Below are positions 35,683-55,941 of a stretch of DNA of 64,000 bases, one piece after another; the stretch's first letter is position 1, and each line of letters begins with the position of its first letter. A model generated the notes under the pieces. It saw nothing but the letters and a program-made list of their open reading frames with translations. It was not told the origin of the DNA and searched no databases. The DNA lies in contig JABLXL010000011.1 in the NCBI GenBank assembly GCA_013178005.1, forward strand, positions 1 through 64,000, written 5' to 3'. This stretch comes from Actinomycetota bacterium. Lineage in GTDB: Bacteria > Actinomycetota > Geothermincolia > Geothermincolales > RBG-13-55-18. The position numbers were made by a program, and so were the translations under genes.

Positions 35683-36136
35683 GGCGGTTCCCCCTTTTCT
35701 GATGTGCCCCATATAGGATTTTAGCCCCTAGCATCCTCGCCATATACGCAACCATAAGCTCTTGTACGTGGCTAGGCTGCTCTCATGTGGATATATTACT
35801 ACAGGGTATAGTCAACTTAAAGCCTGAAATACAGGTTTTTTCCGGGGAGTTTGGGTGATCGTTTTGTCCCGCGTTCATCCGTAAAGGCGATCCAGGATAT
35901 CCACGCCATGGCAACAACCCCCTTTTTGCCTCATGGATTCCGGCGGTTGCCCGCGCGTTCCCTTGGTGCTTGGAGAACCACGCGCAAAGGCAGGCCGGCC
36001 GCCGGCCCTTTAGCATCCTTACGCCAATAATATACATCCCGCAAGTGACATCCTGGCAGCCTATTCCAGCTATTACCTTTAATTGTCACCGGGGGGTGCT
36101 ATAAAGAATCCGTGATCTTCAGAAGGGGTGATGAAC
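35683..36136. other. Divergent intergenic region
   Basis: This 450-bp region separates the radical SAM gene from the plus-strand ARPP-1 gene. TTGACT on the minus strand near 35810 is followed by AT-rich TATATC-like sequence, a possible but poorly spaced promoter. A TATAAA at about 36101 could be the -10 of the plus-strand gene, with GGGG ribosome-binding sequence at 36125. No small gene is supported. Confidence 0.35.
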
Positions 36137-38368: not shown

Positions 38369-38370
38369 CT

Positions 38371-39624
38371 CTAATCACCTTCCTCTTTCGCTAACGAATA
38401 GCGATTGCCGTCCTTTCGCACAAGCCCCGTGCTCAGGAGCCACTGCATACGGTACTGCACCTGGGCCTTGGTTTCCCAATCTACCTTAAGAGTTTCCTTG
38501 AGGAACTCGCATATCTCGTCTTCATCCATGTCGCCATCAACCAAGCGCCCTAAAAGTTCCTTGATTCCGGTGATTCTTTCCTTCAGCTGATTCCCAAGCA
38601 CCTTACTCTCGTCTCCCTCTACGGCTCTCCTTCCCGCCTCCGTAACCTTGAAAGCCTGGCCATCGTAATCGACAACCCCGAGAATCCTTAGCACGCGGAT
38701 GTAGCCATCAAGGGTCTTTTCAGACTTAACCGTGGGGAATTCCTCCATTACCCAGTCTTTCAGGCTCCTCAGTCCCGGCTCGTTCTCCGCGATAAAGCTG
38801 AGCATGGTCTTGGCGGATTCAGCAAACTTGTTGACGCCTCCGGGCAACGGCCATATACCCTGATACATCCGATTTTTCCCATCATCTCCGTCGCCGTCTA
38901 CAACGATACTGGAAAGGTCCAGCTCAAGATATTGCATGTTTCGCTTGGAGATACCGATTCCGTTTTCCACCAGCAGGTCTATGAGTTTCTCCCCGTCGAT
39001 AAGGCTGATCGGGGTCTTGCCTTCGGCATAGGCTTCGGAAACGGCATCTTTAGTGAAACCTGAGGTAGTGATGATGAGACCCCTTTGATCTGCAAGCAGG
39101 CCTCCCCTCAATTCCCTCACCGTCCTGCCCGTGATCTTGTTTTTCCATCTCTTCACCTGCACCGCGGTTTTTACGTTGGTAACCCCGCCTACCGTAAGCT
39201 CTGCCTCCACATCTATGCCACCGTCACCAGAGTACCTTGTCACCTTCACGTCCTCGAAGCCGATTTCCACGAGAAGTCGACCGATCAGATTTTCAAATGC
39301 ACGAGGATCAAGTTCCATCAGCGTTTCTAGCAATTCATCGCGCGTACGCTTATTCCAATCCTCGATCTCTTTCTCCAGGCCAAACCTTGGCTTCTTGGAG
39401 AGGGCAAACCTACCTTGCCCTATCAAACTGATTTCCGGTGTCTTGCCTGCCGCCGCGGTTCTTCTAATATAGGTATAGAGCTGAGCAGCCAGTGTCTGCT
39501 CCGGCGTAAGGCCGCTCGATTCCAGGTACCCTTTTTCCATGGCGGTCCTGGTTATATCCTTATAGTGCATGGGTTTCCCGCCGGACTCCTCCAGTACCTT
39601 TTTAGCCGCTTCAAAGAAAGTCAT
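38371..39624 (-). CDS. Mrr-like restriction endonuclease with HARE-HTH domain
   Basis: A 417-residue nuclease. The N-terminus (1-75) is a HARE-type helix-turn-helix (MTFFEAAKKVLEESGGKPMH, KDITRTAMEKG). The central Mrr_cat domain (105-215) has GDGGIDVEAE (Asp138) and QVKRW (Gln156, Lys158). The C-terminus holds a winged-helix similar to the Mrr N-terminal DNA-binding domain. Mrr-type enzymes cut methylated DNA (type IV restriction). The start ATG 39624 follows GGAGG by seven bases. It is the first gene of an operon with the NucS-like nuclease, suggesting that the two act together. Confidence 0.82.
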   Translation of the reverse strand: MTFFEAAKKVLEESGGKPMHYKDITRTAMEKGYLESSGLTPEQTLAAQLYTYIRRTAAAGKTPEISLIGQGRFALSKKPRFGLEKEIEDWNKRTRDELLETLMELDPRAFENLIGRLLVEIGFEDVKVTRYSGDGGIDVEAELTVGGVTNVKTAVQVKRWKNKITGRTVRELRGGLLADQRGLIITTSGFTKDAVSEAYAEGKTPISLIDGEKLIDLLVENGIGISKRNMQYLELDLSSIVVDGDGDDGKNRMYQGIWPLPGGVNKFAESAKTMLSFIAENEPGLRSLKDWVMEEFPTVKSEKTLDGYIRVLRILGVVDYDGQAFKVTEAGRRAVEGDESKVLGNQLKERITGIKELLGRLVDGDMDEDEICEFLKETLKVDWETKAQVQYRMQWLLSTGLVRKDGNRYSLAKEEGD

Positions 39625-40136
39625 ATTCCACCTCCAGCTGTTCATAAACTTTGAAGATTCATTATTACTTACCAATTCACTTAGCCGACCCCATTTATTC
39701 TCTCATTACTATATTAAATCATCCCATGCTGCCCTCTATCTAATGCCTCCATACAGTTGTCCAATTAGCACCTACTTTGCCCTGTTCCCCCCTCCCGTGG
39801 TAACTGCAGGATAACCTGTAAGTGCAATGCACGATATTGAAAACACTGGTCAGGTATTGGTCTTAAGGGGGACGGATTTACAGTCCGGAAAACACGGTTG
39901 TTCTCGGTTTTCTACTGCGGTTCTCGGCGTCTCTGAATTGCGCTTTACCTGCCCTTTTTCAAGAAACGAGTTATTCTCGGTTGCCCTCGGTTTTCATCGC
40001 TTGCGCTCAGCCATATTGACCATTTGTTGATCGAAAGCACCACTGATTAACTCAAGACGTTGCTCCTGGAGATTCCTATTATTTCTATGAGTCAATTGAT
40101 AATCGCCTCACACTCCAATCACTATCGAGCTCCTCT
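39625..40136. other. AT-rich intergenic stretch in the defence island
   Basis: No gene is supported. The stretch is visibly more AT-rich than the rest of the window and contains TTCTCGGTTTTC-type short repeats around 39900-40000. It probably marks a junction between separately acquired defence genes. Confidence 0.4.
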
Positions 40137-41912
40137 TTATTGCTTCTTGCTCGAAGCAATTTCTTCGTAAATCTTTCTTACGTCCTCCGCAATCCTTCTC
40201 CTGTTGATTTGCCTTATCAGTTGAGCTTCCGTAATGTCCACGCCATACTCGTCATGAACAAGTTGTCTGAAATCTTTCAGCGTTTCCTTCCCTGGGAAAT
40301 ATTTCACAATGTTTCTTTCTTTTCTCCAATCAATCTTGTCAAACCACTCATCGACGTCCATCTCAACTCTTCTATCATCAAGGTCATCTGGCCTTTCACA
40401 AATCCGATTTACATTCTTGGCTTGTTCCCTTATATGACGACGAGCATTTTGCTTCTCATTTTCTGCAGCTTTGACGAGTAATGATCGAACATCTCTTTCT
40501 TTTGCTTCAACCCCCTTTTCTCTTAAAGCACTTAGCATATATTTTACGTCCAATATGTAGTTCTCGATTTCGTGTCTCTCTAGGATATGTACATTCATTT
40601 TCTTCCTATTGTAGAACTGCTTAATGTATTCTACGTATTTATCAGGAAGCCCATCTCTGTCTTGAAGGAAATGTATCTCTATTTTCTTGCCGATTACCGA
40701 TTGAACTGTCTCGTAAAGCTGGTAAATAGCCTGGAATTTCGTTACTCCGCTAGCACATCGGTATCTGCTTTTTTCATTCATAAGCCCTGTCCTTAAGGCT
40801 TTGTCGATTTCACGGTGTATATCTTCCTTCTTATCTTCAATAACAAAACAATTAGGCATGATGGCAATACGTGAAAGTGAGGAGAGCGTCAAGACACCCG
40901 CGCTGAAAAGGCCTGATACATATTCATTTTCATCCTTCACTGCACTAATCGTCTTCTTGCTTGAGTCGATGAAATATATGTTTTCTGGAGAGAAACCATC
41001 AATTACTTCTGGCGAGTGCGTAGATAGAAAGACCTGGGCACCAAGATCTTCTGCCATCTGTTGTATTATCATCGCAACTTTTATTTGTAGCTCCGGGTGA
41101 AGATGTGCATCTGGCTCATCGATTAGTATTACCTCAGGTTTGTGCAGATATATATAAGATAGCAACTGTATTATTTGCTGCATTCCTGATCCAGCGGAAA
41201 CTAAATCGTGTTCCACCCCATTTTGCTGATAAAGGACTTGTACATATTCGTCTTTATCAGGATCGAACGATATTCTTACAATTTCGACATCGAGAGTCTC
41301 CTTCAATATCTTATTGATTCTATTTATAGACTGCCTACTGCTCTTCTGTAGATGGTAAAGCGACGAGCGAAACATCTCTGGATATCGCGCTTCCGCAGAC
41401 AATGCTAGTCTACGAGCAGGTGTTACATATGGCTCCTGAACAAGCATTCCAACTAAGGCGGGAATGAAAGCATGCTTTTGCCTAAGAAAGGAATTTATCT
41501 CACTGCTAACCAATCCCGGATTCTTTAAGAGTTCTGCAGATGCGTGAATCTGTCCAAATTGATACTTAAGTTTCAATTCTATTTCGATTCCTATATCAAA
41601 ACTAATTCTCATGACAATTGGACTTTTAGTTTTTTTTCCATCCGTCCATAATTCATCAGGTTTGGGTATATACCCAATTTCTGAAATGGGGATGTATCTT
41701 CTATGAAACTCAATTCTTCCAGCCTTGTCTTCAAAGCTATCCGATGTAATCGACAAGAGTAGCCTTATTGCATGAAGAATGCTTGTCTTGCCACAATTAT
41801 TTGGGCCAACGAGAATGTTAAAACTTCCAAAAGATATTGTGGTGTTACTAAATGCTCTAAAATGTTCAAGGCTTAACGACGATATTCTCATTTTCCCAAC
41901 ATTATTGGTCAC
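40137..41912 (-). CDS. AAA ATPase with DUF4435/TOPRIM-like C-terminus (OLD-like)
   Basis: A 591-residue protein. The ABC/SMC-type ATPase has Walker A GPNNCGKTS (36-44), signature SAGSGMQQ (239-246), Walker B VILIDEPDAHLHP (261-273) and the switch His in STHS (297-300). The C-terminal part shows FVIED (356-360), QDRD (417-420) and EIENYIL (448-454), the pattern of DUF4435, related to TOPRIM nucleases. OLD-like ATPase-nucleases act in anti-phage defence. The gene is markedly AT-rich compared with neighbours, pointing to recent transfer. GTG 41912 follows AAAGGAGG. It ends the minus-strand cluster of defence genes and lies 36 bp after the methylase gene, so it may be co-transcribed with it. Confidence 0.8.
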   Translation of the reverse strand: MTNNVGKMRISSLSLEHFRAFSNTTISFGSFNILVGPNNCGKTSILHAIRLLLSITSDSFEDKAGRIEFHRRYIPISEIGYIPKPDELWTDGKKTKSPIVMRISFDIGIEIELKLKYQFGQIHASAELLKNPGLVSSEINSFLRQKHAFIPALVGMLVQEPYVTPARRLALSAEARYPEMFRSSLYHLQKSSRQSINRINKILKETLDVEIVRISFDPDKDEYVQVLYQQNGVEHDLVSAGSGMQQIIQLLSYIYLHKPEVILIDEPDAHLHPELQIKVAMIIQQMAEDLGAQVFLSTHSPEVIDGFSPENIYFIDSSKKTISAVKDENEYVSGLFSAGVLTLSSLSRIAIMPNCFVIEDKKEDIHREIDKALRTGLMNEKSRYRCASGVTKFQAIYQLYETVQSVIGKKIEIHFLQDRDGLPDKYVEYIKQFYNRKKMNVHILERHEIENYILDVKYMLSALREKGVEAKERDVRSLLVKAAENEKQNARRHIREQAKNVNRICERPDDLDDRRVEMDVDEWFDKIDWRKERNIVKYFPGKETLKDFRQLVHDEYGVDITEAQLIRQINRRRIAEDVRKIYEEIASSKKQ

Positions 41913-41947: not shown

Positions 41948-44900
41948 TTAGGCTCCATCTGCTTTATTCCATTCTTCTAATACAAGGCGGCGGGTGCGGT
42001 AGAAGCCGAATTGTTTGGTTTCCTTTTCTTTGAGGACGCGGAAGGTTTCGCCGGGGAAGGTGGATGCCTCGCAGCGGGTAAGGTAAGCTTCCTCGTCCAG
42101 GGGGTCGTCCACTTCCTCGTAGTCATCGAGGATGTTTTCCAGTTCCTTTTCGGTGAGGTCGGCGGGGTCGAGGATATAGCGGAGCTGCTTGCGGTTGAGC
42201 CCGTAGAGCTTGGCATATATAGCATCGAGCTCGGCGCGGAGGTGGGCTCGACGGTCCTCGTCCCATTTGAAGGGTGGGAGGGGAATGCTGTCATCAGCGA
42301 TCTCAGCCCATTCGGGAGGGTCCCAGGTATGACCGCCGGTGACTTTTTTGTTCTCCTCCCACTGGGCTTTGATGGCTTGGCGAAGCTCCTCATCTGCATC
42401 GCACCAGATGTCGTCAGCGAAGGGTTTTATATCCCATGCTGAGTAAACAAGCTCTGTCGCTCTTACGCAAATGCGCAAAATGTCCTTTTTATTAAATGAA
42501 TCAGGAGGTAAGACGGGAAATTGCTTAACGAAGTAGAAACTCATATTGGTTCCATCATATTTTTTGGAAACGAAATAATCGAATACAATGGAACATATTA
42601 AGGTCTCTAGACAACATCTAGTGGTTGCTGAAGTGCTCGAATTTAGAAGAAATAAATTGTCGCCAACTGCACTCAATGGTATCGGAGTAGAGATAAATGT
42701 CCATTCGTCATTGCTTCTTGCGTTTCTCCTGAAACTAGATAGAGTGTTACTGTTAGTGAACACTGTTATCTTTTCATATGCTTCTGGCCGGTTAACCCAA
42801 TACCAAGGAATTAACTGGAAAGATGGATTTTGATATTCTTCAACGGAAGGAGTAGGTAGAGGAGCATTCTTAGGCCTTACCGTTATACCATAAAAGTTAC
42901 CAAACCGATGATTAAAGTGGTGTATCATTTTACCCTCATATAACGGCAACCACACTTCTTGGTTTTCGCCTTCGCCTTTGACGAAGCGGTTGCCGAAGAG
43001 GGTGAAGCCGGCTTCCTCGAGCTGTTCGCGGGTGCGGAAGAGATGGGAGTCGGATGACATGTTGAACAAGCCTTGTTTGAACGTAACCCCCCAGGGGTTC
43101 TCGCCAGTTGCTTCGTTCACCAGCACCGGCACCCTTTCATATATATACCTCGTGAGCTCGGCGTCCTGGCGGGTGCGGAAGATGGGGCAGGTGCGGGTGT
43201 TGGGGTTGAGGAGGACGAAGTCTTCCGCGGTGAGCTCGAAGACACGCTTCTCGTCCTTGAGCTGCTCGGCGCAGGTCAAGAAAAAGGCGAATCGGGCAGG
43301 CTCGTCCGTCTTATCGCCCTCTCCCTTAAGGGTGAGGAGGGAGAACTTCTGTCTGCTATCAACCGCCGGGAAGATCTTCTCCCGGTTCTCGAAATCGTAC
43401 AGGCTCGCCAATCTCCCAGATTCCACCAGGTGGGAGAAGAAACGCTTGTTGGTGTCATCGGTGGCGATGCCCGTGTCCACCACCACCCCCACCCTGCCGG
43501 AGCGGCTCATCAATTCGCTGAAGAGTTCGGAGAAGACGGAGTAGCAATTTATCCTGCCGCTAGAGGTAAGCTTGAATCTTCCCGAGGTGCGTAGGAATTT
43601 CCTTGTTGCATCTGCTAGATGCAATGCAATGCTGTATTCCTGCCAAAGGCTAGGATTGGTTTCCTCAAGCTCTTCAATGAGCCGTTTGCGAGCTGATGCG
43701 TTCGGCGCTCCAGCAATAATAGGGTCTCTCGATGCGAAGAACTCTTCCTCCTGCAATTGGATCAGTTCCCACGGAGGATTACACAACACCACGTCAAATC
43801 CGCCCGCATCGAAGACCTCGGGGAACTCCAGGGGCCAGTGGAAGAAACGGTGGCGCTGTGCCATCTCCCAGGCGTGCCCGATGTAGCGCCCGTCGATGTT
43901 CCCGGTCTCTAGGTAGGTGCGCAGGACATCCGTTGTGGGGATGGCTTTCTCCCTGTAACTCTCTTCATCCAGATTCGCGAAGAAGGCGGCTGTCCAGAGG
44001 TGGCAAGCCGTGTTGTCGCGCCACCAACGCCCACCCTCGCCCCTCAGCCTCTCGTAGGCCTCCTGTTTCTTGCGCACCTGCTCGGGGGTATCGTCGGGGA
44101 TATCCGAGAGCTTGCGGTAGGCCTCCGACAACTCCGGGATGTCGCTTGCCGCCTCGAACTCCATGGAGAGCCATCCGACTTTCTCGGTCCTCTCCGCCTT
44201 GTTGTCCTTTTTGATCGATTTGGCGAGGTCCTTGTCGTCGCCCGAGACGGGCTTGAAGGCGTCGTCCGGTATGCCTTCCTCGAGGGCCTTGAGGTCGAAG
44301 ACGCCCACCAGGGAATCCCCGCAGCGGATGCGGTGGTCGAGAAAGGTGAGGGGCCTTCCCTCGGCATGTCCCTCTATCCACAGGGCTACCTTGCAGAGGT
44401 CCACCGCCAGGGGGTTCTTGTCCACCCCGTAGATGCAATGTCCGATGACGTCGCGGATGGCGGGTCTCACTTGCTCGGGCGCGGGCTCCTCGTCGCCCGT
44501 GCGCACGCGGGCGAGCTCCTTGCCCAGGCGGCGGGCGGCAGCCAGCAGGAAGTGTCCGCTCCCGCAGGCAGGGTCGCAAACCCTGATGGAGAGAATGGCT
44601 CGCTCCTTATCCTCCCTGCCCTTTGCTTTCCTTAAGCGCTCGTCAAGAACGGGCTCGAGCGCGCTCTTGATAAGCTCGCTCACGAGCTCGGGCGGGGTGT
44701 AGTAGGAACCGGTGGTCTTGCGCTCCGTGCCGAAGACCAGGCGGAAGGCGGGCTTGCCCTCCTGCTCGATGAAAACGGGGTGGTATTCGAGCAGGCTCTC
44801 ATATACGCTGCCCAGCTCCTCCACGTCCAGGGCAGAGTAATTCACGCGACGACGGGGTGAGCGCGGGTCCTCAGCGTAGGTGGAGAGCTCCCTCAAGGCG

Positions 44901-46042
44901 GCGAGGAGGTCCCGGTTGTAGAGGGAACATCTGTCGAGCTCGGTGCTCGCGAAAAGCTCGCCGTTGAGCGGCGGGACCGCGAGCAGCGCCCCCAGCTCTT
45001 CCTTGCGGAAGAGGTCGAAGGTGGCCTGGAGGGAGATCCAGAGGTCCCGGTGGTCCTCGTCGGGCAGGCGCAGGTCGGCCAGGCGGCGCATGCGCTCCAA
45101 GCTGTAGTGCTCCAGATAGACATCGGAAGGGGAGATGAGCCCTCTCTCCTCCGCCACCATGAGGAAGAGGAGGCGGTAGACCAGGCGGAGAAGGTCGCGG
45201 TAGAAGGCCTCTGGCCTGATCTCCCCCTCGGCCACCAGTTCGCGCAATTCCCCGTTGGCAGGATGGGAAATCAGGCCATTGCCAATTATATCCAGGGCTT
45301 TTTCCACCCCGTCGCGAAGGCGTTCCCGCACCCTTCCTCCCTGCTCGACGCTTTCGGCATAGTAGCTTTCGAGCAGGCATTCGGAGGCGTCGTCCATGCC
45401 CTTTGGCAAGCGGGTTCGGTGAACCAGGCGCCACAGGAGGGCGAAGTCGGAAAGCCTCTCGCCCTCGAACATTCCCTCGAGGTCGAACTCGATGTAGGAC
45501 TGGCGGGCCAGCAGCTGGCTGTCGCGCAGCAGGCGCAGTACGCGTCCGTTGGTGACCACGCCCCAGAGGTGCTCGGTACGGTTGAGGTACTCCTGCAGGA
45601 GCGCGTGGGGGGCGAGGCGAGGGCGCCCGGAAGGCTGAAGCTTGCCCAGCTCCTGGCGCCATCCCACCACGTGAACGGGAGGCGCGTCCTCGCCGGCATC
45701 GGCCCCGTGGCTGATGGCGAAGGTGAGCCCGTCCACCAGTTGCGCCTTGGGCCGGTAGGTGAGCTCGTATCCCAAAAGGCTCATGAGGGGGATGACCCAG
45801 CCGTCGCGGGTCACGCTGGTGCCCAGGTCCTCCGGGGGCAATTGCTCCAAGCGGGACCTAAAAGCCTCCCAGTAACGGCGGGCGGCGGCCCAGGCATCGG
45901 CCACCTCATCCAGGAAGTGGGCCTTGGCGGAAAGACCGAAGTCCATAGGTTTCTGCCCCTTAGCTTCGCCTGCAGCCACGCGCTCGACGAGGTCGAAGGC
46001 GAGGAGCCCTCCTTCCACCTTAAGGCTCTGAAAGCGGCTCAT
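41948..46042 (-). CDS. N6-adenine DNA methylase, DrmMI/Eco57I-like (DISARM-related)
   Basis: A 1364-residue methylase. Motif I DPACGSGHF is at 490-498 and the catalytic NPPW at 755-758, characteristic of N6-adenine methylation. The N-terminal 440 residues contain an RE-like or helical scaffold region (GVVTNGRVLRLL). Residues 760-837 and about 1027-1200 are encoded by visibly AT-rich DNA, the latter corresponding to the target-recognition domain. Its start overlaps the preceding helicase gene by ATGA (46039-46042), so translation is coupled. Length and context resemble the large methylases of DISARM class 1 and Eco57I-type systems. It probably marks host DNA so that the helicase/nuclease partners ignore it. 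Confidence 0.85.
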   Translation of the reverse strand: MSRFQSLKVEGGLLAFDLVERVAAGEAKGQKPMDFGLSAKAHFLDEVADAWAAARRYWEAFRSRLEQLPPEDLGTSVTRDGWVIPLMSLLGYELTYRPKAQLVDGLTFAISHGADAGEDAPPVHVVGWRQELGKLQPSGRPRLAPHALLQEYLNRTEHLWGVVTNGRVLRLLRDSQLLARQSYIEFDLEGMFEGERLSDFALLWRLVHRTRLPKGMDDASECLLESYYAESVEQGGRVRERLRDGVEKALDIIGNGLISHPANGELRELVAEGEIRPEAFYRDLLRLVYRLLFLMVAEERGLISPSDVYLEHYSLERMRRLADLRLPDEDHRDLWISLQATFDLFRKEELGALLAVPPLNGELFASTELDRCSLYNRDLLAALRELSTYAEDPRSPRRRVNYSALDVEELGSVYESLLEYHPVFIEQEGKPAFRLVFGTERKTTGSYYTPPELVSELIKSALEPVLDERLRKAKGREDKERAILSIRVCDPACGSGHFLLAAARRLGKELARVRTGDEEPAPEQVRPAIRDVIGHCIYGVDKNPLAVDLCKVALWIEGHAEGRPLTFLDHRIRCGDSLVGVFDLKALEEGIPDDAFKPVSGDDKDLAKSIKKDNKAERTEKVGWLSMEFEAASDIPELSEAYRKLSDIPDDTPEQVRKKQEAYERLRGEGGRWWRDNTACHLWTAAFFANLDEESYREKAIPTTDVLRTYLETGNIDGRYIGHAWEMAQRHRFFHWPLEFPEVFDAGGFDVVLCNPPWELIQLQEEEFFASRDPIIAGAPNASARKRLIEELEETNPSLWQEYSIALHLADATRKFLRTSGRFKLTSSGRINCYSVFSELFSELMSRSGRVGVVVDTGIATDDTNKRFFSHLVESGRLASLYDFENREKIFPAVDSRQKFSLLTLKGEGDKTDEPARFAFFLTCAEQLKDEKRVFELTAEDFVLLNPNTRTCPIFRTRQDAELTRYIYERVPVLVNEATGENPWGVTFKQGLFNMSSDSHLFRTREQLEEAGFTLFGNRFVKGEGENQEVWLPLYEGKMIHHFNHRFGNFYGITVRPKNAPLPTPSVEEYQNPSFQLIPWYWVNRPEAYEKITVFTNSNTLSSFRRNARSNDEWTFISTPIPLSAVGDNLFLLNSSTSATTRCCLETLICSIVFDYFVSKKYDGTNMSFYFVKQFPVLPPDSFNKKDILRICVRATELVYSAWDIKPFADDIWCDADEELRQAIKAQWEENKKVTGGHTWDPPEWAEIADDSIPLPPFKWDEDRRAHLRAELDAIYAKLYGLNRKQLRYILDPADLTEKELENILDDYEEVDDPLDEEAYLTRCEASTFPGETFRVLKEKETKQFGFYRTRRLVLEEWNKADGA

Positions 46043-48882
46043 CCCTTGACCCCCTTGGGCACTGGTAGGAGCACTATGACGCCCAAAAGGTCCGGCGGAA
46101 GGTGCCGGGTCACGGTAACGCCCCGGCGCACCACACGGGCTGCCTGGCGCACACGCTTGTGGGAATCCTGCAGGGCGCGGGCCCTCTCCTCGAGTATCCC
46201 CCTGATCTCACCCTTGAGATCCTCGTACCACGTCCGTGCTTTCTCAAGGGCCTCCGTCCGCGCCTGTGGGCTCACGTTTTCCTCGGGTTCGGCCTCGCGA
46301 AGGAGGGCGACCGCTTCCTCGCGGTTAAGCCAGGAAACGCCGTCGGGAGGCGAGCCGGTGAAGGCTAGGGGGAGCACCTCCTCGGCCAAGAGGTCCCCCG
46401 CGTCCGGGGTGGTTAGGGTGTAGCGACAACGCAGGAGGAGGAGGGTGGTGCGTCTATCCACCCGGCTCGTACGCATGACCCCGCAGCGGGAAGCGACCGA
46501 GCCTTCCTTTGCGGCCAGCGCTTCCTCCAGGAGATGGCGCGCCAGGGCAGTCACGAAGGGGTGGTTGCGCCCGACGAACACGGAGCCCTCGGGGGCTGGA
46601 GCCTCAAAGGAGAGGCGGCGCCCGCCCAGCGTAAGCAGGGCCTCGCGCACCCGCTCGGGGAAGCGGTCGAGGGAGGAAAGCTCGTAGGTGGCGTCCCTCT
46701 TGCGCTTGCAACCAACGCCTAGGCGCTTGCAGGCCTCGAGCACGAAGTCCCGCACCGCGCCAGGGTCTCCCAGTACGGAATCGGTCTCCTCGAGCTCGCG
46801 CTCCACCTCGTCGGGCTTGATGGCCCGTTGGGCGAAGCGGGTGCGGCTCTCCTTCTCGCGCTCCGCCGCGCGATCCCAATCGCGCACCAGCTCTCGGGCG
46901 TCGGGAGCGTCGAAGAGCTGCATCTGCGAGGCGTCCCGGCCCCGGAAGAAGAGGGACTCGAGCACCGCCTCCATCACCGTCTCGCTGTCCGCGGGAACGG
47001 GCACGGATATGCCCAGGGTCTTGTGGATGTCCCTGGCCTTGCGCAGGAGCACATCGAGCACCGCCCCGTCCACCGGGTTGTCCCTGCCATAAAGGAGTAC
47101 GGCCTTGACCGTGGGGGCGGTCTGCCCGAAACGGTCCACCCTCCCCTCCCGCTGTTCCAGGCGGTTAGGGTTCCAGGGGAGGTCGTAGTGGATGACGGCG
47201 TTGAAATCATCCTGCAGGTTGATGCCCTCGCTCAGGCAGTCGGTGGCCACAAGCACCCTGTGGGGAAAAGCGGAAAGCTCTTCCACCTTCAGCTTGCGCT
47301 CTTCCTCTGAGAGGGCGCCGGTAACCGACAACACTCGCAGCTCCTTAAAGGAGCGGGAGAGCCGTCGTTCCAGCTCCGCCGCCACATAGTCCGAGGTGGC
47401 TATGTAGCGGCACCATACGATGGGGGAATATCCCTCATCAAGCAGCTCTCCCACGAGCTCGGCGCACTTCTCCACCTTGCGGTCGTCTCCACCCTTCAAG
47501 GCCTCGGCCTGTTTGGCGAAGGCGCGCATCCTTCTGGCCTCGGTGTCGGAGAGCTCGTCCGCCCCTTCCTCGATGACCTGCGACGGCTGGACGTCGCTTG
47601 CGTCCCTGTCCTCCGACTCGTAGATGGTGTGGATGGCCTGGTCGTCGCCTTCCTCCTCCGCCTCGACCAGCCCCTTCAAGCGCTTGCCGATGGCAGCCAC
47701 GGCGGCGGCGGGGCTGGACATCACGCAGCGCAAGAGCGCCAGGGCGGTCCAGTAGCGGATGCGCCGCTTCCACCCCTTGAGCGATTCTCCCGAGGCCACC
47801 AGTTCCCGGCTGAACTCGTACACGCCTTCGAAGAGCTTGCGGTAAGGGGGCGAGAGTTCGTAATAGGCTTCCGAGGCGTCGCGCTCGGGGAAGGGGGTTT
47901 TCTCACCCAGCCAGTCGACCACATCGGCGCGGCGGCGCTGTACGAAGTGCCGTGCCAGGTGATCGCGCTGCTTTTCCGTAAGTCTTTGCAGATCCAGGCG
48001 CTCGAATTCGGGATCAAGGAGCCCGAGCAGGGAAAGGAACGCTTCCTCCACCCCGCTGTGGGGAGTGGCGGTGAGGAGGATGAGGTGGCGGTCGCTGTTC
48101 TTTGCCAGCTCGCGCAGGAGAGCGTGGCGCTGCTGCTGGGTGGCAGAGCGACTGGAGGGCAGCGCTGCCCCGTGGGCCTCGTCCACGATGACCAGCTCCG
48201 GGCAGTTGGCGAGGAAGTTTTGGCGGTGGCGCTCGCTTTTCACGTAATCGATGCTCACCACCGTGAAAGGGAAATAGCTGAATATGCTGTGGTCGCCGGG
48301 GGGCAGGCGGCGTTCGAGCGAGCTCACCGTGCCGGAGTTGATGATCACCGCATCCAAGTGGAACTTCTCGCGGAGCTCCTTGTTCGCCCACTGGTCGCAG
48401 AGGTAAGGCGGGCAGAGCACGCAGATGCGCCTAATCTCCCCCCGGTCGAGGAGCTCGCGGGCGATCGCCGCCGCCTCGATTGTCTTTCCCACCCCCACGT
48501 CGTCCGAGATGAGCAGGCGCACTGGGTCGAGGCGCAGGGCCATGAGCATGGGAACGAACTGGTAGGGACGGGGCCTCACCGAGATGCGGCCAAGAGAGCG
48601 GAAGGGGCCGGCGCCTTCTCTTAAGGTGAGGCGGGCTGCGTCAAAGAGGAGCCCCGCCGATGTCGCATCCCCCGCCTCTTCTGGCTTGGGGAGCGGGAAG
48701 TCGGCGGAGGTGATGGTGTCGATGCCGTATTTCATCAGCTGCGTGGAGACGCCGCAGATCTCCTCCTCCCCTCCCGCCAGGGGGCGCAGCATGACCACGT
48801 CCTCCCGGTGGGATGGGAGGACCACCCACTCCCGCTCCCTGCAACGCACGATGGATCCCACGCCAAACGTACCGTCGCTCAT
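46039..48882 (-). CDS. SNF2-family helicase, DrmD-like
   Basis: A 947-residue SF2 helicase of the RapA/SNF2 type. Motifs: Walker A DDVGVGKTIEA (128-138), DEAH box VIVDEAHG (231-238), TATP (271-274), and motif VI QREGRVDRFGQ (577-587). An acidic linker (405-450) splits the two RecA lobes, and a 300-residue C-terminal region follows. DrmD of DISARM has this architecture. Both ends overlap the neighbouring genes by ATGA (48879-48882 and 46039-46042), meaning the three proteins are made in fixed proportions. It should translocate on DNA and recruit or drive the methylase or nuclease. Confidence 0.85.
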   Translation of the reverse strand: MSDGTFGVGSIVRCREREWVVLPSHREDVVMLRPLAGGEEEICGVSTQLMKYGIDTITSADFPLPKPEEAGDATSAGLLFDAARLTLREGAGPFRSLGRISVRPRPYQFVPMLMALRLDPVRLLISDDVGVGKTIEAAAIARELLDRGEIRRICVLCPPYLCDQWANKELREKFHLDAVIINSGTVSSLERRLPPGDHSIFSYFPFTVVSIDYVKSERHRQNFLANCPELVIVDEAHGAALPSSRSATQQQRHALLRELAKNSDRHLILLTATPHSGVEEAFLSLLGLLDPEFERLDLQRLTEKQRDHLARHFVQRRRADVVDWLGEKTPFPERDASEAYYELSPPYRKLFEGVYEFSRELVASGESLKGWKRRIRYWTALALLRCVMSSPAAAVAAIGKRLKGLVEAEEEGDDQAIHTIYESEDRDASDVQPSQVIEEGADELSDTEARRMRAFAKQAEALKGGDDRKVEKCAELVGELLDEGYSPIVWCRYIATSDYVAAELERRLSRSFKELRVLSVTGALSEEERKLKVEELSAFPHRVLVATDCLSEGINLQDDFNAVIHYDLPWNPNRLEQREGRVDRFGQTAPTVKAVLLYGRDNPVDGAVLDVLLRKARDIHKTLGISVPVPADSETVMEAVLESLFFRGRDASQMQLFDAPDARELVRDWDRAAEREKESRTRFAQRAIKPDEVERELEETDSVLGDPGAVRDFVLEACKRLGVGCKRKRDATYELSSLDRFPERVREALLTLGGRRLSFEAPAPEGSVFVGRNHPFVTALARHLLEEALAAKEGSVASRCGVMRTSRVDRRTTLLLLRCRYTLTTPDAGDLLAEEVLPLAFTGSPPDGVSWLNREEAVALLREAEPEENVSPQARTEALEKARTWYEDLKGEIRGILEERARALQDSHKRVRQAARVVRRGVTVTRHLPPDLLGVIVLLPVPKGVKG

Positions 48883-51800
48883 TGTTTCGCCTCCCCGAAG
48901 ACGTCAGGGTATGCCGCTATCTGCTCTTCCAAGTCCCTATCGTAGCGGATGACGATCACTCGATATCCAAGGTTTTCCAGCTCACGGCGGACCTTCTCGT
49001 CCTTCTCCCTCTGGGCGGGCTCGTCATGCACGGAGCCGTCGCAATATATGCAGTCGTATTTCTCATAGAAGAAATCGGGGATGGTGCCGTGGTGGTCCTC
49101 AAGAGCACGCTGGGCGTCATCGGGCAACCTGCGCCGGGTCTTGTAGATGTGGTCGAGGAACTTCCTCTCCAGCTCGGAGCGGGAATCCGTGAGGGCGCGC
49201 AACCACCGGTAATGGCTCTCGTAGTCCCTTTCATTGATAACCGGGTGGGTCTCGGAATGCGCGAGCTCGCCCAGCAGGTCCCTCACCAGGGAGCGGCTGA
49301 GCTGGGGGTAGTCCCTCTGGTTGGAATAGGAGAGGAGGCAGTCGTAGCAGGCACGCACACATTCAGGGCTTTGGTCCTCCAGGGTCTCAGGGTCGTAGTG
49401 GCATACGGCCAGGGCCTCCGCTGCCACCCTGGCCATGGCGTCCCTCTCCTCCACCAGGGCGCGCAGGATGCCGTAGCCGCCCTCGCTCGCCTCGTAGAAG
49501 AGGATGCCACGGTGGCTGCCTTTTCCAATGCGCTCCGAGGCGAGTTCCGAGGCCTCTATCTGGTAGGTCTGCTCGATGCCGCGCCGCAAGGCGTGTTCCA
49601 GCGTGGTCAGCATCTCCTCGGGCCAGTCCATGTCCTCACTGCCCGGGTAGAGGAGCATGACGTTCATGGTGTCGCGCACGAACAGGCGCACCTGGTCGAT
49701 GTTTCCTGCGGGCGCCCCCTCCTGTCCCTCCCGGTTGCGTGGCACGAACTCCCCGGTATCGAAGTCCAGGAGGTAGCCGTCCTCCCTGCTCGTCTTCCAG
49801 CGGTGATTGATGCGGTAGACGGTGGCCGAGGGGGCATAGGTGAGCTTGAGGATGGCGCTCCCGCCTGCGGCTTTCACGGTGGCAGGGATGCGGCCTTCGC
49901 TTGTCCCCCTTACCGGCGCGAACTCGAAGTGGGTGGTGATGTGGTAGCCGAGGCGACGCCTTTCCTCTTCCTCGCTGGTGATGCGCTCGCGACGGCGCGT
50001 ATAGACGTTGGTGGCCTCGAGCATAGAGGCGTAGGTGTAGTCCTCGCCGGCGAGCTTGCTTCCGCAGTTCAGGCAGAGCTCCACGCTCTCGTCAGCGTGG
50101 AGGTAGCCGCAGACGTTGCAAAGCTTGACCCGCAGGCGCCTTTTACCCAGGTCGGTGATGGTGGTCCTCAGCCCGCACACCTGGTACTTCGAGCCCTCGT
50201 GGTAGATGAAGCTCTCGGGCGCGAACTCCGAGATGGCAAGGAAGCGCGGCCTGTCCACGTAATCGCCCTTCTTCTCCCTGGGAAGGAAGGCGCTCAAGGG
50301 CAGGCGCGGGAAATTGTAGCCGGGCAGGAACCCCTCGCTGGCGAGATAACGGTAAGGGTAGAAGTCGGATTCCTGAAAGGAGGCGGTCTCGTTGCGGAGG
50401 AGGGCGATCTGCCTCTCCGCCTCGGCCCGGCTCCTCTCGGCCTTGGCCAAGTCATCCTTGCTTCCGGTGCGATAACGCAGGATGTCGTTTGCCTCTACAA
50501 ACTGCCTGTCCGCAACCTGGTAGAGCTCGCGGAAGCGGTTGAAGGCATCGTCGAATTCTTCTGGCGCTCGCTTGAGGGTTTTTTCGATCCACTCGTCTGA
50601 GTACCAGGCGGCCTTCTCGATATCCGGGGCGCAGGAGTCCAGGATGCGCTTGACCTCCTCCATGCATTCCTTGAAGTCCTTTTCGGACAGGTTGATCTTG
50701 TTCCGGACATCCTCGGTGAGGGGATATCCTTCCTGGCGCAAGTCGAGTATGTTGGCGATGGACCTCAATGGCGAGCCGTCGGTCGATGATTTCCCCAGTG
50801 AGAGGCCGGTCTTGGCGAGCCAGACGGAGTGGAGGTGTGCGGTCGCCAGGTCCTCGCTTGTGAGGTCGATGCGCGGGGGCTGGACGGCGCCCGAGACCAT
50901 CTCCCGCTGGTGGCGGAAGAAATACTGGTCGTGCCCGCTCCCGGCGAGGCAGTAGGTGAGGACCAGGGCGGGGTCCCCTTTACGGCCCGCTCGGCCGCTG
51001 CGCTGCGCGTAGTTGGCAGGTGTGGGCGGGACGTTGCGCATGTGCACGAGCTGCAGGTCGGCGATGTCTATGCCCAGTTCCATGGTAGGGGAGCAGAAAA
51101 GGCACTTGAGCTCGCCGCTGCGGAAGCGCTGCTCCCTCTCCTCGCGGTGCTCGTAGCCTATCTGGGCGGTATGCTCGCGCCCCTCCACTTCGCGCAGGAG
51201 CGCCGAGGAGCGCATGTAGAACTCCTTGAAGTACTGGTTGGCTTCCTTCTCGGCCTTGAGGTAGATGGGGTCTTCGGCACGGCGCATGTAGATGGGCTCG
51301 CTGATGGGAGTGCCGTCTCCCCTCTTCCACACCAGAGCTGCCGACTCCAGCTGCACGAAGGATACCCCTCTTTCCGAATCGCGCCGCAGTAGGCCATGGG
51401 CGCAGAGGATATCTACCAGCTTCTCCATGTTCTCCTCGTATTCCGCCTCGAAGGTAGGCAAGACCCGTTTAAGGTAGCGGTGCAGCAGGCTGCGGACTGA
51501 GAGGCTGAAGCTGTTGCCTAAATTTTCCTCCTGGCCAGGCAGGATGAAGCGGGAAGCCAGGCGCAACCTCTCCTTCTCCTCGAAACCCCAGCGCGCATCA
51601 ACGCGCTCTATGACGCGCTTTTTCAACAACGCCTCGTTTGTCTCCTGCAGGCAGGATGCATGGATAGCGAGCTGGCGGCGGAACTGGTCGAGAAAGGCCT
51701 TGAGCACCTCCAGGCGTTTTTCGGGGGAGGCATCGGCGAAGGGCTTGAGCTCTCGCCAAGCCTCCTCGTTTGCACAAAGATCACGCAGGCCCAGGTAGTC

Positions 51801-53972
51801 CATGGCGAGCAGACCACACTGCTCCAGGTTGGGCTGGACCACCCGCCAGCCGCGGCGCAGGTCTTCGTATATGCGGTACTCGACGAGGTCGGTGAAGGCT
51901 TTGGCCACTTCCTTGCCGAGCGGACTGTCGGGGAGCAGTTCCTTGTTGGCGGATATATCTCGGAAATCGAGTTTCAGGCTCTCAACCACTTTTCCTGCGA
52001 TCTGGTCGTAGCGCAGCTCCCCTGCTTCCTGGAGCGCCGCATATATGGCGGCGCGCAGCAGGGACACCTGCACGAAGTCGTTGAAGTGGCCGGCCTGCAG
52101 GCTTGCGTCCTGGCGGTTGTCGGTAAAGGAGAGGAGCTTGCGCGCCGAGGCCTCGATGTCTCCCTTGGGAGCGTTCTCCAAGGCGGAGAGAGCCAGCACG
52201 GTGGTGGCGGTCGAGCGACCTTCGCTGGAGAGACCGGTGAGCTTGCGGAACTCACTCTCCCTGCCGTAGAAGACCCCGCAATTGAGGCAGAGTCGGAAGG
52301 GCTGGGGCTGAAACCAGGCTTTTACCGCACCCTCGGCGGGACTCTCGGTATAGCTGCCGTCTGGGTGTACCCAAACCGGGCGTGGCACGTAGTCCTTGTA
52401 AGCGTTCTTCACCCTGCCTTTTTCGGTGAGCCATTCCGAGGGCAGGTTCTCCGGGCCCCATTCCACCTCGCGGTCCTCGGGGGCGAGCAGGAGGTATCCT
52501 TTGCCCTCGATTTCTTCAAGGTAGCTGAATTCGTCGCTCAACGGGTTGAACATCATTTCCTCGGGATCATGCAGCACCTCGTAGTACTCGACCCCGCAGA
52601 TGCGGCAGAACTTCAAGGGAAAGAGTGGAATGACGCCTCCCTCCCGGCTGGCGAAGGTATAGCCCTCGAGGTCGAAGACGCGCTCGGCCCGGGGCTCGAG
52701 CGAGGCGAAGACGCGGTTGCCCTGGGCGATGAACTGGTGGAGCTTGAAGGAGAGGAGCGTCTCGCCTTTCTCGGACCTTATCGCCGCCCCGGCGAGGAAA
52801 GCCCGGCTCAAAGCCTCCTTGCAGGCCTCGACACCAAGCCCTGTTTGCTCGGAAAGCGTTTCCGCTCCCTCATCAAGGCTGATGGGTGAACGGCGGCGCA
52901 GCTTTCCTCCGTCTTCCTCCTCAAGGCCGAAGTTAGCCTCTATCCATCTGGTGAGGGGATTCGCCAGGAGTTCCTCGGGAGCCTCTGGAAGCGGGGATTC
53001 CACAGCCTCGCGCAGCTCGCCGGGGTCTATCTCTCCCTCGCGCTGAGTGATGCTCTCCAAGGTCTCCTCGATGACCTGACCGGCCTCGAAGGCTGAGCCG
53101 AAGATCTGGCCCGCGAAGTTTGCCACCGCCTGGCGTCTTTCCTCAGGGGAGGTTGCTTTTCCCGCTATCATGGTGGCGCTGGTCCCCATGCAGATGAGAT
53201 TCTGCTTCTTGCTCCTCTCCTTCAGGCGCCGGATGAGGAAGGCTACGTCCGCACCCTGGCGTCCCCGGTAGGTATGGAGCTCGTCTATCACCAGGTACTT
53301 GAGGGCCGTGGTGGTGCGGTCCACGAACATGTGTTCCTCGGGCCGCACCATCATCAACTCGAGCATCACGTAGTTGGTGAGTAGGATGTGCGGGGGGTCT
53401 TTCTGGATATCCAAGCGGTCGGCCATCTCCTGGCCGGTGTATTTGCTGAAACGGACGGGGAAAGGCTGGCCGGTCCTCTCTTTGTATGTTTCCTCCCACT
53501 CCTGGAGGGCTATGTACTGGGAGTTGACCAGGGCGTTCATGGGATAGACGATGATGGCCCAGACCTTGTGGGCACCCGGATCGCCTTTCAGCACGGCGTC
53601 GATTATGGGGACGAAGTAGGTGAGGCTCTTGCCGGACCCGGTCCCGCTGGTGACCACGAAACCCTTGCCCGCGAGGGCGGTCTCGATGGCTTCAAGCTGG
53701 TGCTGGAAAAGGGTGATGGAGTTGCCTTCCTTGTCGCGGAAGATGTTGGCGCAGTCGGGGTGGAGCTTTCCCTCCGCCACCAGCTGCTCTACGGTTTCCG
53801 CTTTCCTGTAGGCGGGATTGAGCTGCAGTAGAGCGGGCGGCCAGAGGGCGCCTTTTTCGATGAGTTCCTCGGAGATATAGTCCTTGATGCGCTCGTCCTG
53901 GATAAGGAGGAAGCTGTTTATGTAGCGGCGGTATTCATCGATGACGGCGTCGCGTAGGTCGAAAATGCTCAT
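48879..53972 (-). CDS. DEAD/DEAH helicase-DUF1998-nuclease fusion (DrmA/DrmB-related)
   Basis: A 1697-residue fusion. The helicase part has Walker A SGTGSGKS (109-116), DELH box VIDELHTYRG (228-237), TSAT and motif VI QRSGRAGRKG (about 990). Zinc-type cysteine clusters appear at CRICG, CLNCG and CNVCG/CLNCG (about 1290-1305). The DUF1998/MZB hallmark CVRACYDCLLSY lies at about 1536-1547. The last 90 residues form a probable PD-(D/E)XK nuclease related to DUF559 (IPDFFYEKYDCIYCDGSVHD, then GYRVIVIRYD). DISARM encodes helicase (DrmA) and DUF1998 (DrmB) separately; here they appear fused with a nuclease. It is the first gene of the operon, with GGGGAGG seven bases upstream. Confidence 0.85.
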   Translation of the reverse strand: MSIFDLRDAVIDEYRRYINSFLLIQDERIKDYISEELIEKGALWPPALLQLNPAYRKAETVEQLVAEGKLHPDCANIFRDKEGNSITLFQHQLEAIETALAGKGFVVTSGTGSGKSLTYFVPIIDAVLKGDPGAHKVWAIIVYPMNALVNSQYIALQEWEETYKERTGQPFPVRFSKYTGQEMADRLDIQKDPPHILLTNYVMLELMMVRPEEHMFVDRTTTALKYLVIDELHTYRGRQGADVAFLIRRLKERSKKQNLICMGTSATMIAGKATSPEERRQAVANFAGQIFGSAFEAGQVIEETLESITQREGEIDPGELREAVESPLPEAPEELLANPLTRWIEANFGLEEEDGGKLRRRSPISLDEGAETLSEQTGLGVEACKEALSRAFLAGAAIRSEKGETLLSFKLHQFIAQGNRVFASLEPRAERVFDLEGYTFASREGGVIPLFPLKFCRICGVEYYEVLHDPEEMMFNPLSDEFSYLEEIEGKGYLLLAPEDREVEWGPENLPSEWLTEKGRVKNAYKDYVPRPVWVHPDGSYTESPAEGAVKAWFQPQPFRLCLNCGVFYGRESEFRKLTGLSSEGRSTATTVLALSALENAPKGDIEASARKLLSFTDNRQDASLQAGHFNDFVQVSLLRAAIYAALQEAGELRYDQIAGKVVESLKLDFRDISANKELLPDSPLGKEVAKAFTDLVEYRIYEDLRRGWRVVQPNLEQCGLLAMDYLGLRDLCANEEAWRELKPFADASPEKRLEVLKAFLDQFRRQLAIHASCLQETNEALLKKRVIERVDARWGFEEKERLRLASRFILPGQEENLGNSFSLSVRSLLHRYLKRVLPTFEAEYEENMEKLVDILCAHGLLRRDSERGVSFVQLESAALVWKRGDGTPISEPIYMRRAEDPIYLKAEKEANQYFKEFYMRSSALLREVEGREHTAQIGYEHREEREQRFRSGELKCLFCSPTMELGIDIADLQLVHMRNVPPTPANYAQRSGRAGRKGDPALVLTYCLAGSGHDQYFFRHQREMVSGAVQPPRIDLTSEDLATAHLHSVWLAKTGLSLGKSSTDGSPLRSIANILDLRQEGYPLTEDVRNKINLSEKDFKECMEEVKRILDSCAPDIEKAAWYSDEWIEKTLKRAPEEFDDAFNRFRELYQVADRQFVEANDILRYRTGSKDDLAKAERSRAEAERQIALLRNETASFQESDFYPYRYLASEGFLPGYNFPRLPLSAFLPREKKGDYVDRPRFLAISEFAPESFIYHEGSKYQVCGLRTTITDLGKRRLRVKLCNVCGYLHADESVELCLNCGSKLAGEDYTYASMLEATNVYTRRRERITSEEEERRRLGYHITTHFEFAPVRGTSEGRIPATVKAAGGSAILKLTYAPSATVYRINHRWKTSREDGYLLDFDTGEFVPRNREGQEGAPAGNIDQVRLFVRDTMNVMLLYPGSEDMDWPEEMLTTLEHALRRGIEQTYQIEASELASERIGKGSHRGILFYEASEGGYGILRALVEERDAMARVAAEALAVCHYDPETLEDQSPECVRACYDCLLSYSNQRDYPQLSRSLVRDLLGELAHSETHPVINERDYESHYRWLRALTDSRSELERKFLDHIYKTRRRLPDDAQRALEDHHGTIPDFFYEKYDCIYCDGSVHDEPAQREKDEKVRRELENLGYRVIVIRYDRDLEEQIAAYPDVFGEAKQ

Positions 53973-54098: not shown

Positions 54099-54195
54099 GG
54101 GGCCACATCTTCAATCTAGATTCGCGAGTAACATAGGGGCCACAACATGCGGACGCCGGAAGTTACCGAGGATTAAAGATTGAAGATGTGACCCC
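54099..54195. repeat. 97-bp element with inverted ends, family C copy 1
   Basis: The left end GGGGCCACATCTTCAATCT and the right end AGATTGAAGATGTGACCCC are near-perfect inverted repeats of 19 bp. The interior contains CGCGAGTAACAT and AACATGCGGACGCC. A second copy, same length and orientation, lies at 55845-55941, on the other side of the AbiE pair. The ends resemble the GGGGTC REP-like repeats elsewhere, giving a REPIN- or MITE-like form. Confidence 0.9.
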
Positions 54196-54214
54196 GGCCG
54201 CCACCGTGAACCCT

Positions 54215-54337: not shown

Positions 54338-55114
54338 TTACAGCTCCATCCCCTCGAGGTAATGGCGAAATCCGCGCACCCTCTTGGCATCGGACGGGAC
54401 GAACAGGAAGGGCTCGACCTCCCTGGCGAGCGCGTCGAAGTCGAGCTCGCGGCACCTTTTCAGCAGCCTTCTCTTCAGGTCGCCGCTATCCCTTACCCCC
54501 ATCTTCGAGCGGAGATAGTCGAGGTTCGGCCTTGCCTTTCCCAGGAGGAAAACGATGTCGTAGAAATCCCTGCCCATGGGCCTTTTACGGTTGAAGGTCG
54601 CGAATATCTTCTGGGCCAGCAGGACATCCGCCGGCGCAACGTTGACGCGCAGGAAAACGTCGAACTTGTTCAGGATGACCTTGTCGGGGGGATACGGAAA
54701 ATCCTGGGGCTCGGCGTTCAGCTTGACGAGAAGCTTCTCCTGACGGTGGCCGGAAAGCCCATAGGCGAAAAGGACGCCCGGTAATCTTATCTCGCAGGTG
54801 AAAGCCTTGCGGAAGACGTTTTTCAGCTCGACCTCGTATCCCTCGAGCGCGAGCCTCCTTTCAAACAACCCGGAAAGGCGACCGAACTCGTCCTTTCTCA
54901 TTCCAAGGTTGTCGAAATCCAGGTCTTCCGAGAAACGGGTGTTGCCGTGGATGATCCTTAACGAGGTCCCGCCCATGAAGATAAGCTTCGCCCCGAACTG
55001 AGAATCATAGATCGTCTCAAGGATCTTGTATTGAAGGTACTCTCGCAGGAGGTTCCTCTTGAAGGGCCGCAGGGATTCCGGGTAAAAGGACTCTATCTGC
55101 GCCAGATCAAGCAT
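54338..55114 (-). CDS. AbiEii-like nucleotidyltransferase toxin
   Basis: A 258-residue type IV toxin of the AbiEii/MenT family. The nucleotidyltransferase motif is GGTSLR (48-53) followed by RFSEDLDF (60-67; Asp65 and Asp67 bind metal); ADVLLAQKIFA and GRDFYD complete the active site. Such toxins add nucleotides to tRNA and arrest translation, giving abortive infection. ATG 55114 overlaps the end of the AbiEi gene by eight bases, the standard coupled order. The pair is flanked by two 97-bp direct repeats. Confidence 0.88.
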   Translation of the reverse strand: MLDLAQIESFYPESLRPFKRNLLREYLQYKILETIYDSQFGAKLIFMGGTSLRIIHGNTRFSEDLDFDNLGMRKDEFGRLSGLFERRLALEGYEVELKNVFRKAFTCEIRLPGVLFAYGLSGHRQEKLLVKLNAEPQDFPYPPDKVILNKFDVFLRVNVAPADVLLAQKIFATFNRKRPMGRDFYDIVFLLGKARPNLDYLRSKMGVRDSGDLKRRLLKRCRELDFDALAREVEPFLFVPSDAKRVRGFRHYLEGMEL

Positions 55115-55724
55115 TTTCCATGAACCTCCATAAGTCACGGACCCGCCTTGCCAGTGCCCTGCTGGCAAAACGCTCGAGGTTTTCTTTCACCCTCTCCTCG
55201 CTCACCTGCTCAAAGAAGCTATCCTTATCCAGCCTAAGGCCGCGAAAGTCCTCCAACGTCCTGAGGTGAGGCATGAGGTAGAGGTAATCGAGGATCGCCT
55301 TCTCTACCGTAGCTATCTTGAAGGTCTTGCCATCGTTCCTCACAAGCTCGTAGCCGAAAAACAAGCCCGGCTTCACGGTGCGATAGGAGAACTCGGCCAC
55401 CTCGGTCCTGAATCGGTAGGTCTTACGTGTGGTAACCGAGGTTATGCCGTAAACGCCCTCGGGGATCAGGTGATAATAGGACAGGGCCATCTCAAGCGAC
55501 ACATACGATGGCGCATAGATGCGGTTGGCTATCTCGAACAGCGTGCCCTCGTTCAACTCCAGGTCGGAGAATATGTAGTAGCCCTTGATGATCTTTCTGA
55601 TGTAGCCCTTCTCCTGCCACTCGTTCAAACGTCGGCGGTGAAACGCCTGGTCGATCGCCCTTATGTCGCGCAGCGAAAAGACGGTGAAGTCCTTGAGCGA
55701 TTCCTTGAGCTCCAGGTAACGCAT
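55107..55724 (-). CDS. AbiEi-like antitoxin/transcriptional repressor
   Basis: A 205-residue type IV antitoxin. The N-terminal winged helix (VFSLRDIRAIDQAFHRRRL, EWQEKGYIRKIIKGYYIFSD) binds DNA; the middle YVSLEMALSYYHLIPE and VYGITSVTTRKTYRF are family landmarks. It represses its own operon and counters AbiEii. ATG 55724 follows GGAGGA. Upstream, GCTATTATTAGC (minus strand) is a near-palindrome suitable as its operator. Confidence 0.87.
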   Translation of the reverse strand: MRYLELKESLKDFTVFSLRDIRAIDQAFHRRRLNEWQEKGYIRKIIKGYYIFSDLELNEGTLFEIANRIYAPSYVSLEMALSYYHLIPEGVYGITSVTTRKTYRFRTEVAEFSYRTVKPGLFFGYELVRNDGKTFKIATVEKAILDYLYLMPHLRTLEDFRGLRLDKDSFFEQVSEERVKENLERFASRALARRVRDLWRFMENA

Positions 55725-55762
55725 TTCATTCCTCCATGTTGCTAATAATAGCACTAATTAGA

Positions 55763-55844: not shown

Positions 55845-55941
55845 GGGGTCAGATCTTCAATCTGCAGTCGCGAGTAGCATGGGGGCTGCAACCTGCTGAC
55901 GCTGTATGTTACAGGGGACTGAAGATTGAAGATGTGACCCC
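55845..55941. repeat. 97-bp element with inverted ends, family C copy 2
   Basis: Same length, orientation and ends (GGGGTCAGATCTTCAATCT and AGATTGAAGATGTGACCCC) as the copy at 54099-54195, with several internal changes. It lies upstream of the abiE promoter. Together the two copies delimit a 1.75-kb toxin-antitoxin unit. Confidence 0.9.

Follow-up and report, generated by a model that had tools for sequence, protein, structure and literature searches.

The stretch of DNA analysed here (the window, 64,000 nucleotides) comes from an actinobacterial genome related to Candidatus Solincola and contains three intact, very long open reading frames of 1697, 947 and 1364 amino acids on its minus strand. 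We refer to their products as ArmC, ArmA and ArmB, which is also their order in the operon (C-A-B):

48879..53972, minus strand: ArmC, YprA-family helicase-nuclease (predicted), first gene, 1697 aa
46039..48882, minus strand: ArmA, RapA/BrxHII/DrmD-like SNF2 translocase, 947 aa
41948..46042, minus strand: ArmB, PglX/DrmMI-like N6-adenine DNA methylase, 1364 aa

On inspection of the sequence both the ArmC-ArmA and the ArmA-ArmB junctions are ATGA overlaps, so that the frames and their chaining are exactly as given in the initial annotation, which had described three very large genes linked in this way. The G+C content of the trio is 58-66%, compared with 61% for the window.

ArmC carries DEAD, Helicase_C and MZB domains, all above the Pfam cut-offs, together with seven CxxC pairs. 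Its structure was modelled in two parts, the N-terminal 1140 residues (mean pLDDT 86.4; best fold match MrfA) and the C-terminal 578 residues (pLDDT 82.9; best fold matches MrfA and DISARM DrmB), and the following parts can be placed on the chain:

53166..53714, minus strand: RecA1 (residues 87-269), Walker A GTGSGK at 110 and DELH at 230, MrfA-like fold
52773..53147, minus strand: all-helical insert after RecA1 (residues about 276-400), AlphaFold2 model, pLDDT about 80-96
52263..52760, minus strand: beta-rich zinc module (residues about 405-570), CxxC at 456 and 562
51321..51488, minus strand: winged-helix-like segment before RecA2 (residues about 829-884), from the secondary structure of the model
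50838..51275, minus strand: RecA2 (residues about 900-1045), motif VI QRSGRAGR at 990
50397..50597, minus strand: long helical hairpin (residues about 1126-1192), model helices 7-47 and 53-73 of the C-terminal half
50064..50120, minus strand: single zinc insert in the OB region, CxxC at 1285 and 1300
49335..49601, minus strand: MZB/DUF1998 domain (residues 1458-1546), by Pfam, with a fold matching MrfA and DrmB
48882..49193, minus strand: Vsr/DUF559-type PD-(D/E)xK nuclease domain (residues 1594-1697), E1602, D1633, D1645-G..H1649, D1658

The N-terminal part thus runs from RecA1 through the all-helical insert, the beta-rich zinc module and a series of helical and winged-helix-like parts to RecA2, and the C-terminal half holds the long helical hairpin, an OB-CON-DUF1998 canopy and the nuclease. 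The motifs of RecA1 are near-invariant across 61 aligned proteins, the cysteines of the zinc module are kept in about 75% of the relatives, and an MZB match is found by Pfam in all 37 of the 37 family members searched. By position and secondary structure the all-helical insert is a putative BrxA-like domain of the ARMADA/Druantia lineage and the winged-helix-like segment a putative MarR-like domain, while the long helical hairpin occupies the position of the ARMADA HTH/coiled-coil finger. Between RecA2 and MZB the only CxxC pairs are those at 1285 and 1300, a count of zinc inserts made by cysteine pairs and not by fold. A sequence search of solved structures with ArmC returned large helicases and MrfA and nothing closer. 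As modelled, the domain order is that of the published ARMADA architecture, with the putative BrxA-like and MarR-like inserts assigned by position and secondary structure.

The C-terminal nuclease domain is the part of ArmC that a single-sequence search brings out least, as the DUF559 match at residues 1631-1679 has an E-value of 0.0022 and lies below the Pfam cut-off. A Foldseek search with the C-terminal half gave no separate nuclease match, since the nuclease is a small part of that model, and we therefore examined the domain by Pfam on 37 family members and by profile comparison with Vsr proteins. Among the 37 relatives DUF559 is matched in 15 (best E-value 5e-7) and REase_MTES_1575 in 7. 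Residues E1602, D1633, D1645, G1646, H1649, D1658 and G1669 are near-invariant (about 56-60 of 61 ArmC proteins) and the region is modelled confidently, with block pLDDT values mostly of 85-93. In the profile comparison the C-terminus of ArmC is co-linear with two annotated Vsr proteins and shares with them the positions of the motifs [ST]..E, PD[F], G and D, although a single pair (P = 0.00023, probability 45%) is by itself no more than suggestive. In sequence and model the domain is Vsr-like, with its signature residues intact. The matches in the relatives, the conservation, the model and the Vsr alignment together uphold the C-terminal DUF559-like PD-(D/E)xK domain of the initial annotation, whose remaining domain list for the 1697-residue protein (DEAD/DEAH helicase, zinc clusters and DUF1998/MZB) also stands, the helicase being of the SF2 type.

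ArmA and ArmB are the SNF2-type helicase and the N6-adenine methylase that had been named at the outset. ArmA has SNF2 and Helicase_C domains by Pfam, with DDVGVGKT at 127 and DEAH at 234, and its profile finds RapA as the best match in the PDB and nothing closer. ArmB matches Eco57I/N6_Mtase in Pfam and has DPACGSG at 490 and NPPW at 755, motifs whose residues are near-invariant in 64 aligned proteins.

Searches of the defence library PADLOC give a divided picture. ArmC is matched best by DruE3 (334 bits, 4.7e-100), ArmA by DpdE (700 bits) ahead of DrmD (311 bits, 4.5e-93), and ArmB by DrmMI (285 bits, 2.4e-85) as well as by type IIG methylases. A library that lacks ARMADA models would be expected to scatter the locus over three systems in this way, and the matches to DruE, DpdE and DrmMI that PADLOC 2.0.0 (2023) returns here can mislead towards Druantia, Dpd or DISARM.

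The arrangement of the locus corresponds to ARMADA Type I, a bacterial anti-virus system named in a 2025 preprint by Bell et al. (PMC12458937). ARMADA I is defined there as a YprA homologue followed by a BrxHII-like helicase and then a PglX-like methylase, where the first helicase bears a C-terminal Vsr-type nuclease that is predicted to be active, and where the OB region holds one zinc insert as opposed to the two inserted domains of Type II (PMC12458937). At our locus we find a YprA-family helicase of the ARMADA/Druantia branch, the same gene order, the Vsr-type domain and one zinc insert. The three families, their order, the OB-CON-DUF1998 canopy, the single OB zinc insert and the C-terminal Vsr-type nuclease are all shared with ARMADA Type I; we found nothing that sets the locus apart, and its neighbours alone differ. 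For reference, a tree of these helicases included two ARMADA II proteins, from E. coli and Microvirga, and seven DruE proteins. ArmC is placed inside the ARMADA I clade (SH-aLRT 100) and apart from both reference groups, the seven DruE proteins being divided from the rest by one branch (SH-aLRT 81). The tree was built quickly, its root is uncertain and several of its Druantia branches are long; it served only to place the window ArmC. We put the probability that ArmC, ArmA and ArmB make up an intact anti-phage system of ARMADA Type I at roughly 95%. ARMADA Type II (E. coli NCTC 12900; L054) has homologues of all three proteins, but its order is A-B-C-D in contrast to C-A-B here, its fourth protein ArmD (RelE-UvrD) has no counterpart in the form of a UvrD-type gene adjoining the trio in the neighbour annotation, and its ArmC is only about 24% identical to that of the window, over part of the length.

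The initial annotation had instead read the operon as a compact DISARM variant in which DrmA and DrmB are fused, DrmD and DrmMI are kept and the PLD nuclease DrmC is replaced by a fused PD-(D/E)xK domain. Profile searches of the kind it had suggested bear this out in part: ArmA and ArmB are homologous to DrmD and DrmMI of DISARM class 1, as the PADLOC matches above attest, and ArmA scores 341.7 bits on the NCBIfam model DISARM_DrmD. However, the latter score is well under the cut-off of 610, and the match of ArmC to DrmA is weak (49.5 bits) and exceeded by that to DruE3. ArmC is also not DrmA and DrmB fused: members of the YprA family usually have helicase, OB, CON and DUF1998 on one chain, and DISARM is the lineage in which the chain is split (PMC12458937). 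DISARM class 1 has this split helicase (DrmA, DrmB) together with a separate PLD nuclease, DrmC, and neither is present here. No separate DrmB or other MZB protein was found near the locus; elsewhere in the genome MZB is matched only by a stand-alone YprA-like helicase (about 775 aa), which lies on another contig. A PLDc_2 search of the host genome, which is 97% complete, gave no match, whereas 12 of 14 control genomes were positive. A search for the DrmA family in 120 genomes of the phylum gave no match, but neither did any control genome, so that it says nothing either way. Nor is the nuclease a replacement on the same chain, because the fused chain with its Vsr-type domain is the published architecture of ARMADA I and II (PMC12458937). 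With a single-chain helicase, no PLDc_2 protein and a DrmD score below the equivalog cut-off we rejected DISARM membership and consider this reading very improbable. What stands of it is a DISARM-related defence operon; what falls is the new variant, since the trio, its order and the fused architecture are those of ARMADA Type I, and an identical trio that already bears a name is what the initial annotation had itself listed as counting against its novelty.

The score of ArmC with DruE3 raises the question of a Druantia-type system, with DruE the closest helicase family to ArmC in the defence libraries. Both are fused helicases of similar build that carry zinc modules and MZB, and the solved structures that ArmC matches best in sequence are large helicases which, at 2108 and 1970 aa, are as long as DruE. 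However, the tree puts ArmC outside the Druantia group, its constant partners are ArmA and ArmB, and no Druantia partner gene was recognised beside it. Given that its neighbours are ArmA, ArmB, AbiEi/AbiEii, an AriAB-like ATPase and an Mrr-type nuclease, and that ArmC stands outside the DruE clade, Druantia membership was rejected and can hardly be credited at all. Dpd was considered on the strength of the top PADLOC score of ArmA, which falls on one DpdE profile, and of DpdJ, a distant relative of ArmC. Against this, ArmA reaches only 203.8 bits on the NCBIfam DpdE model (cut-off 500), for which we rejected Dpd membership, and none of the proteins we examined could be assigned to deazapurine synthesis. 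The profile in question, PDLC02853 of PADLOC-DB, gives ArmA 700 bits compared with about 140 for the next best DpdE profiles; with ArmA scoring so far above its scores on other DpdE profiles, PDLC02853 was probably built from ARMADA ArmA proteins.

The trio is a recurrent unit. The ArmC helicase is present in 22 of 397 genomes of the phylum, and in every other phylum locus long enough to hold all three genes the trio has the same order. Over the combined set of loci, C-A-B occurs in 52 and A-B-C in 11, the latter being the alternative ARMADA I order reported for archaea and cyanobacteria (PMC12458937). Hosts are found in Actinomycetota, Chloroflexota, Cyanobacteriota, Planctomycetota, Bacteroidota and Pseudomonadota and among methanogens; the survey of gene order that the initial annotation had called for accordingly returns the same trio in many phyla, archaea included. 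Full-length relatives of ArmC are 35-86% identical to it, the closest (86%, L027) coming from the same family. That family includes Candidatus Solincola, and JACVJF010000054.1 (L060) bears the same trio. The source organism may be thermophilic; a trio from a mesophilic relative is that of Gracilibacillus (L109). As the same-order trio recurs in dozens of genomes at helicase identities of 35-86%, the operon is far beyond chance.

Anti-phage activity of this trio is a prediction by analogy, as the experiments in the naming paper concern ARMADA Type II only and no Type I member (PMC12458937). In ARMADA II all four genes and the Walker and NPPW motifs are required, and protection is broad and non-abortive (PMC12458937). 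Among related helicases, DruE is a helicase-nuclease that loads on 3' single-stranded DNA. MrfA, and probably DrmA, translocates on single-stranded DNA (PMC12458937). From these requirements, the loading of DruE and the translocation of MrfA and DrmA, and by comparison with ARMADA II, Druantia III and DISARM, we infer the following roles. ArmB would methylate adenines of the host DNA and so mark self. ArmA, being of the RapA/SNF2 type, would translocate on double-stranded DNA and help the complex to sample unmodified or abnormal DNA. ArmC would load where 3' single strands are exposed and translocate with the OB-CON-DUF1998 canopy as a clamp on the strand; cutting would fall to its own Vsr-type nuclease domain, and the phage DNA would be destroyed while the cell survives. 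By analogy with these relatives ArmC is very likely a DNA helicase-nuclease effector, and the self-marking scheme as a whole is somewhat favoured. Protection by ARMADA II is reported to be lost when its methylase carries a catalytic mutation (PMC12458937), which suggests that the methylase is more than a passive self-marker or is needed for assembly of the complex. We retain the earlier reading of three co-translated proteins that between them modify, translocate and cut DNA. ARMADA II, the sole type tested experimentally, needs ArmD as a fourth protein (PMC12458937), whereas ArmD is not in this locus, which counts against the ARMADA reading. A clean, intact Type I example with high-identity relatives is of value mainly as a Type I test bed, on which one could ask directly if the three proteins are enough when ArmD is missing.

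The initial annotation had also proposed looking for a defence island, and the trio does lie in one, which extends beyond the region 41948-53972:

54338-55754: AbiEi/AbiEii genes, upstream of ArmC
54099-54196 and 55845-55941: two imperfect palindromes of 97-98 bp, flanking the AbiEi/AbiEii genes
40137-41912, same strand as the trio: AriAB/OLD-like ATPase, 35 bp downstream of ArmB
37283-39675: Mrr_cat nuclease with HARE-HTH and, after a gap of 2 bp, a 361-aa PDC-S11-like protein
36128-37120, opposite strand: ARPP-1 domain protein (PF20208, E-value 1.3e-101), beside the defence genes

The ATPase matches AAA_15/AAA_21 in Pfam as well as AriA and AriAB, and has DRDG and EIENY motifs after its ATPase part. 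Its position on the same strand, 35 bp after ArmB, could mean that it is a fourth functional subunit of the system, and AAA_15/AAA_21 ATPase genes do follow ArmB directly in three further loci (L064, L072 and L079). These are, however, just 3 of the 60 loci surveyed, and a search of the other 396 genomes of the phylum for relatives (E-value below 1e-20) found none, which leaves the ATPase in 1 of 397 genomes where 22 have the ArmC helicase. Its G+C content is deviant (39%, against 58-66% in the trio), and it resembles the single-gene AriAB/OLD defence proteins. On the phylum search, the neighbour survey and the deviant G+C content we dropped a missed fourth subunit as the main reading and regard it as very unlikely; the ATPase is probably a separate, recently acquired defence gene. 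Also unlikely is a reading in which ARMADA I loci have a slot beside the methylase gene for exchangeable accessory effectors, the AriAB/OLD-like ATPase having been recruited into it here to work with the trio. At other loci the occupant would be an LmuB-like protein together with a Drt1a reverse transcriptase, a CHAT protease, or a homologue of the RelE-UvrD protein ArmD.

Of the other neighbours, the Mrr_cat nuclease and the PDC-S11-like protein are likely to form a two-gene unit. The two palindromes flanking the AbiE genes are 81% identical to each other and very stable when folded, and the genome has three further partial copies, two of which form opposed arms with 3.2 kb between them. They make up a MITE-like dispersed element, which has perhaps mobilised the AbiE cassette.

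Several further arrangements were seen at ARMADA Type I loci of other genomes. Six of them (L099, L103, L051, L128, L098 and L114) have an LmuB/DUF2326-like gene (about 655 aa) that overlaps ArmB at its end or directly adjoins it, and in L099 (17183-22829) it is followed by a Drt1a reverse transcriptase. CHAT-domain proteases come next after ArmB in two (L119:17112-19955 and L113:18278-20689). ArmD (RelE-UvrD) homologues lie inside or beside the loci at L114:7917-10007, L038:7386-9791, L052:18225-20219, L151:15219-17240, L076:19607-21694 and L065:21091-22787. Thermus and Allomeiothermus have the Type II arrangement A-B-C-D, although their ArmC clusters with Type I. A complete ARMADA I trio is also carried by IMGVR_UViG_3300005573_000072 (L138), a 95 kb sequence classed as viral, whose ArmC and ArmA are 70% and 77% identical to those of the window; the system is carried by a virus, or else a contig of the host was wrongly filed among the viral ones. 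Finally, plasmid MP1 of Deinococcus radiodurans R1 (L050, 20946-25975) has an ARMADA Type I locus in which ArmB is split into three open reading frames, with an IS630-like transposase before the third, after which McrB and McrC genes follow.
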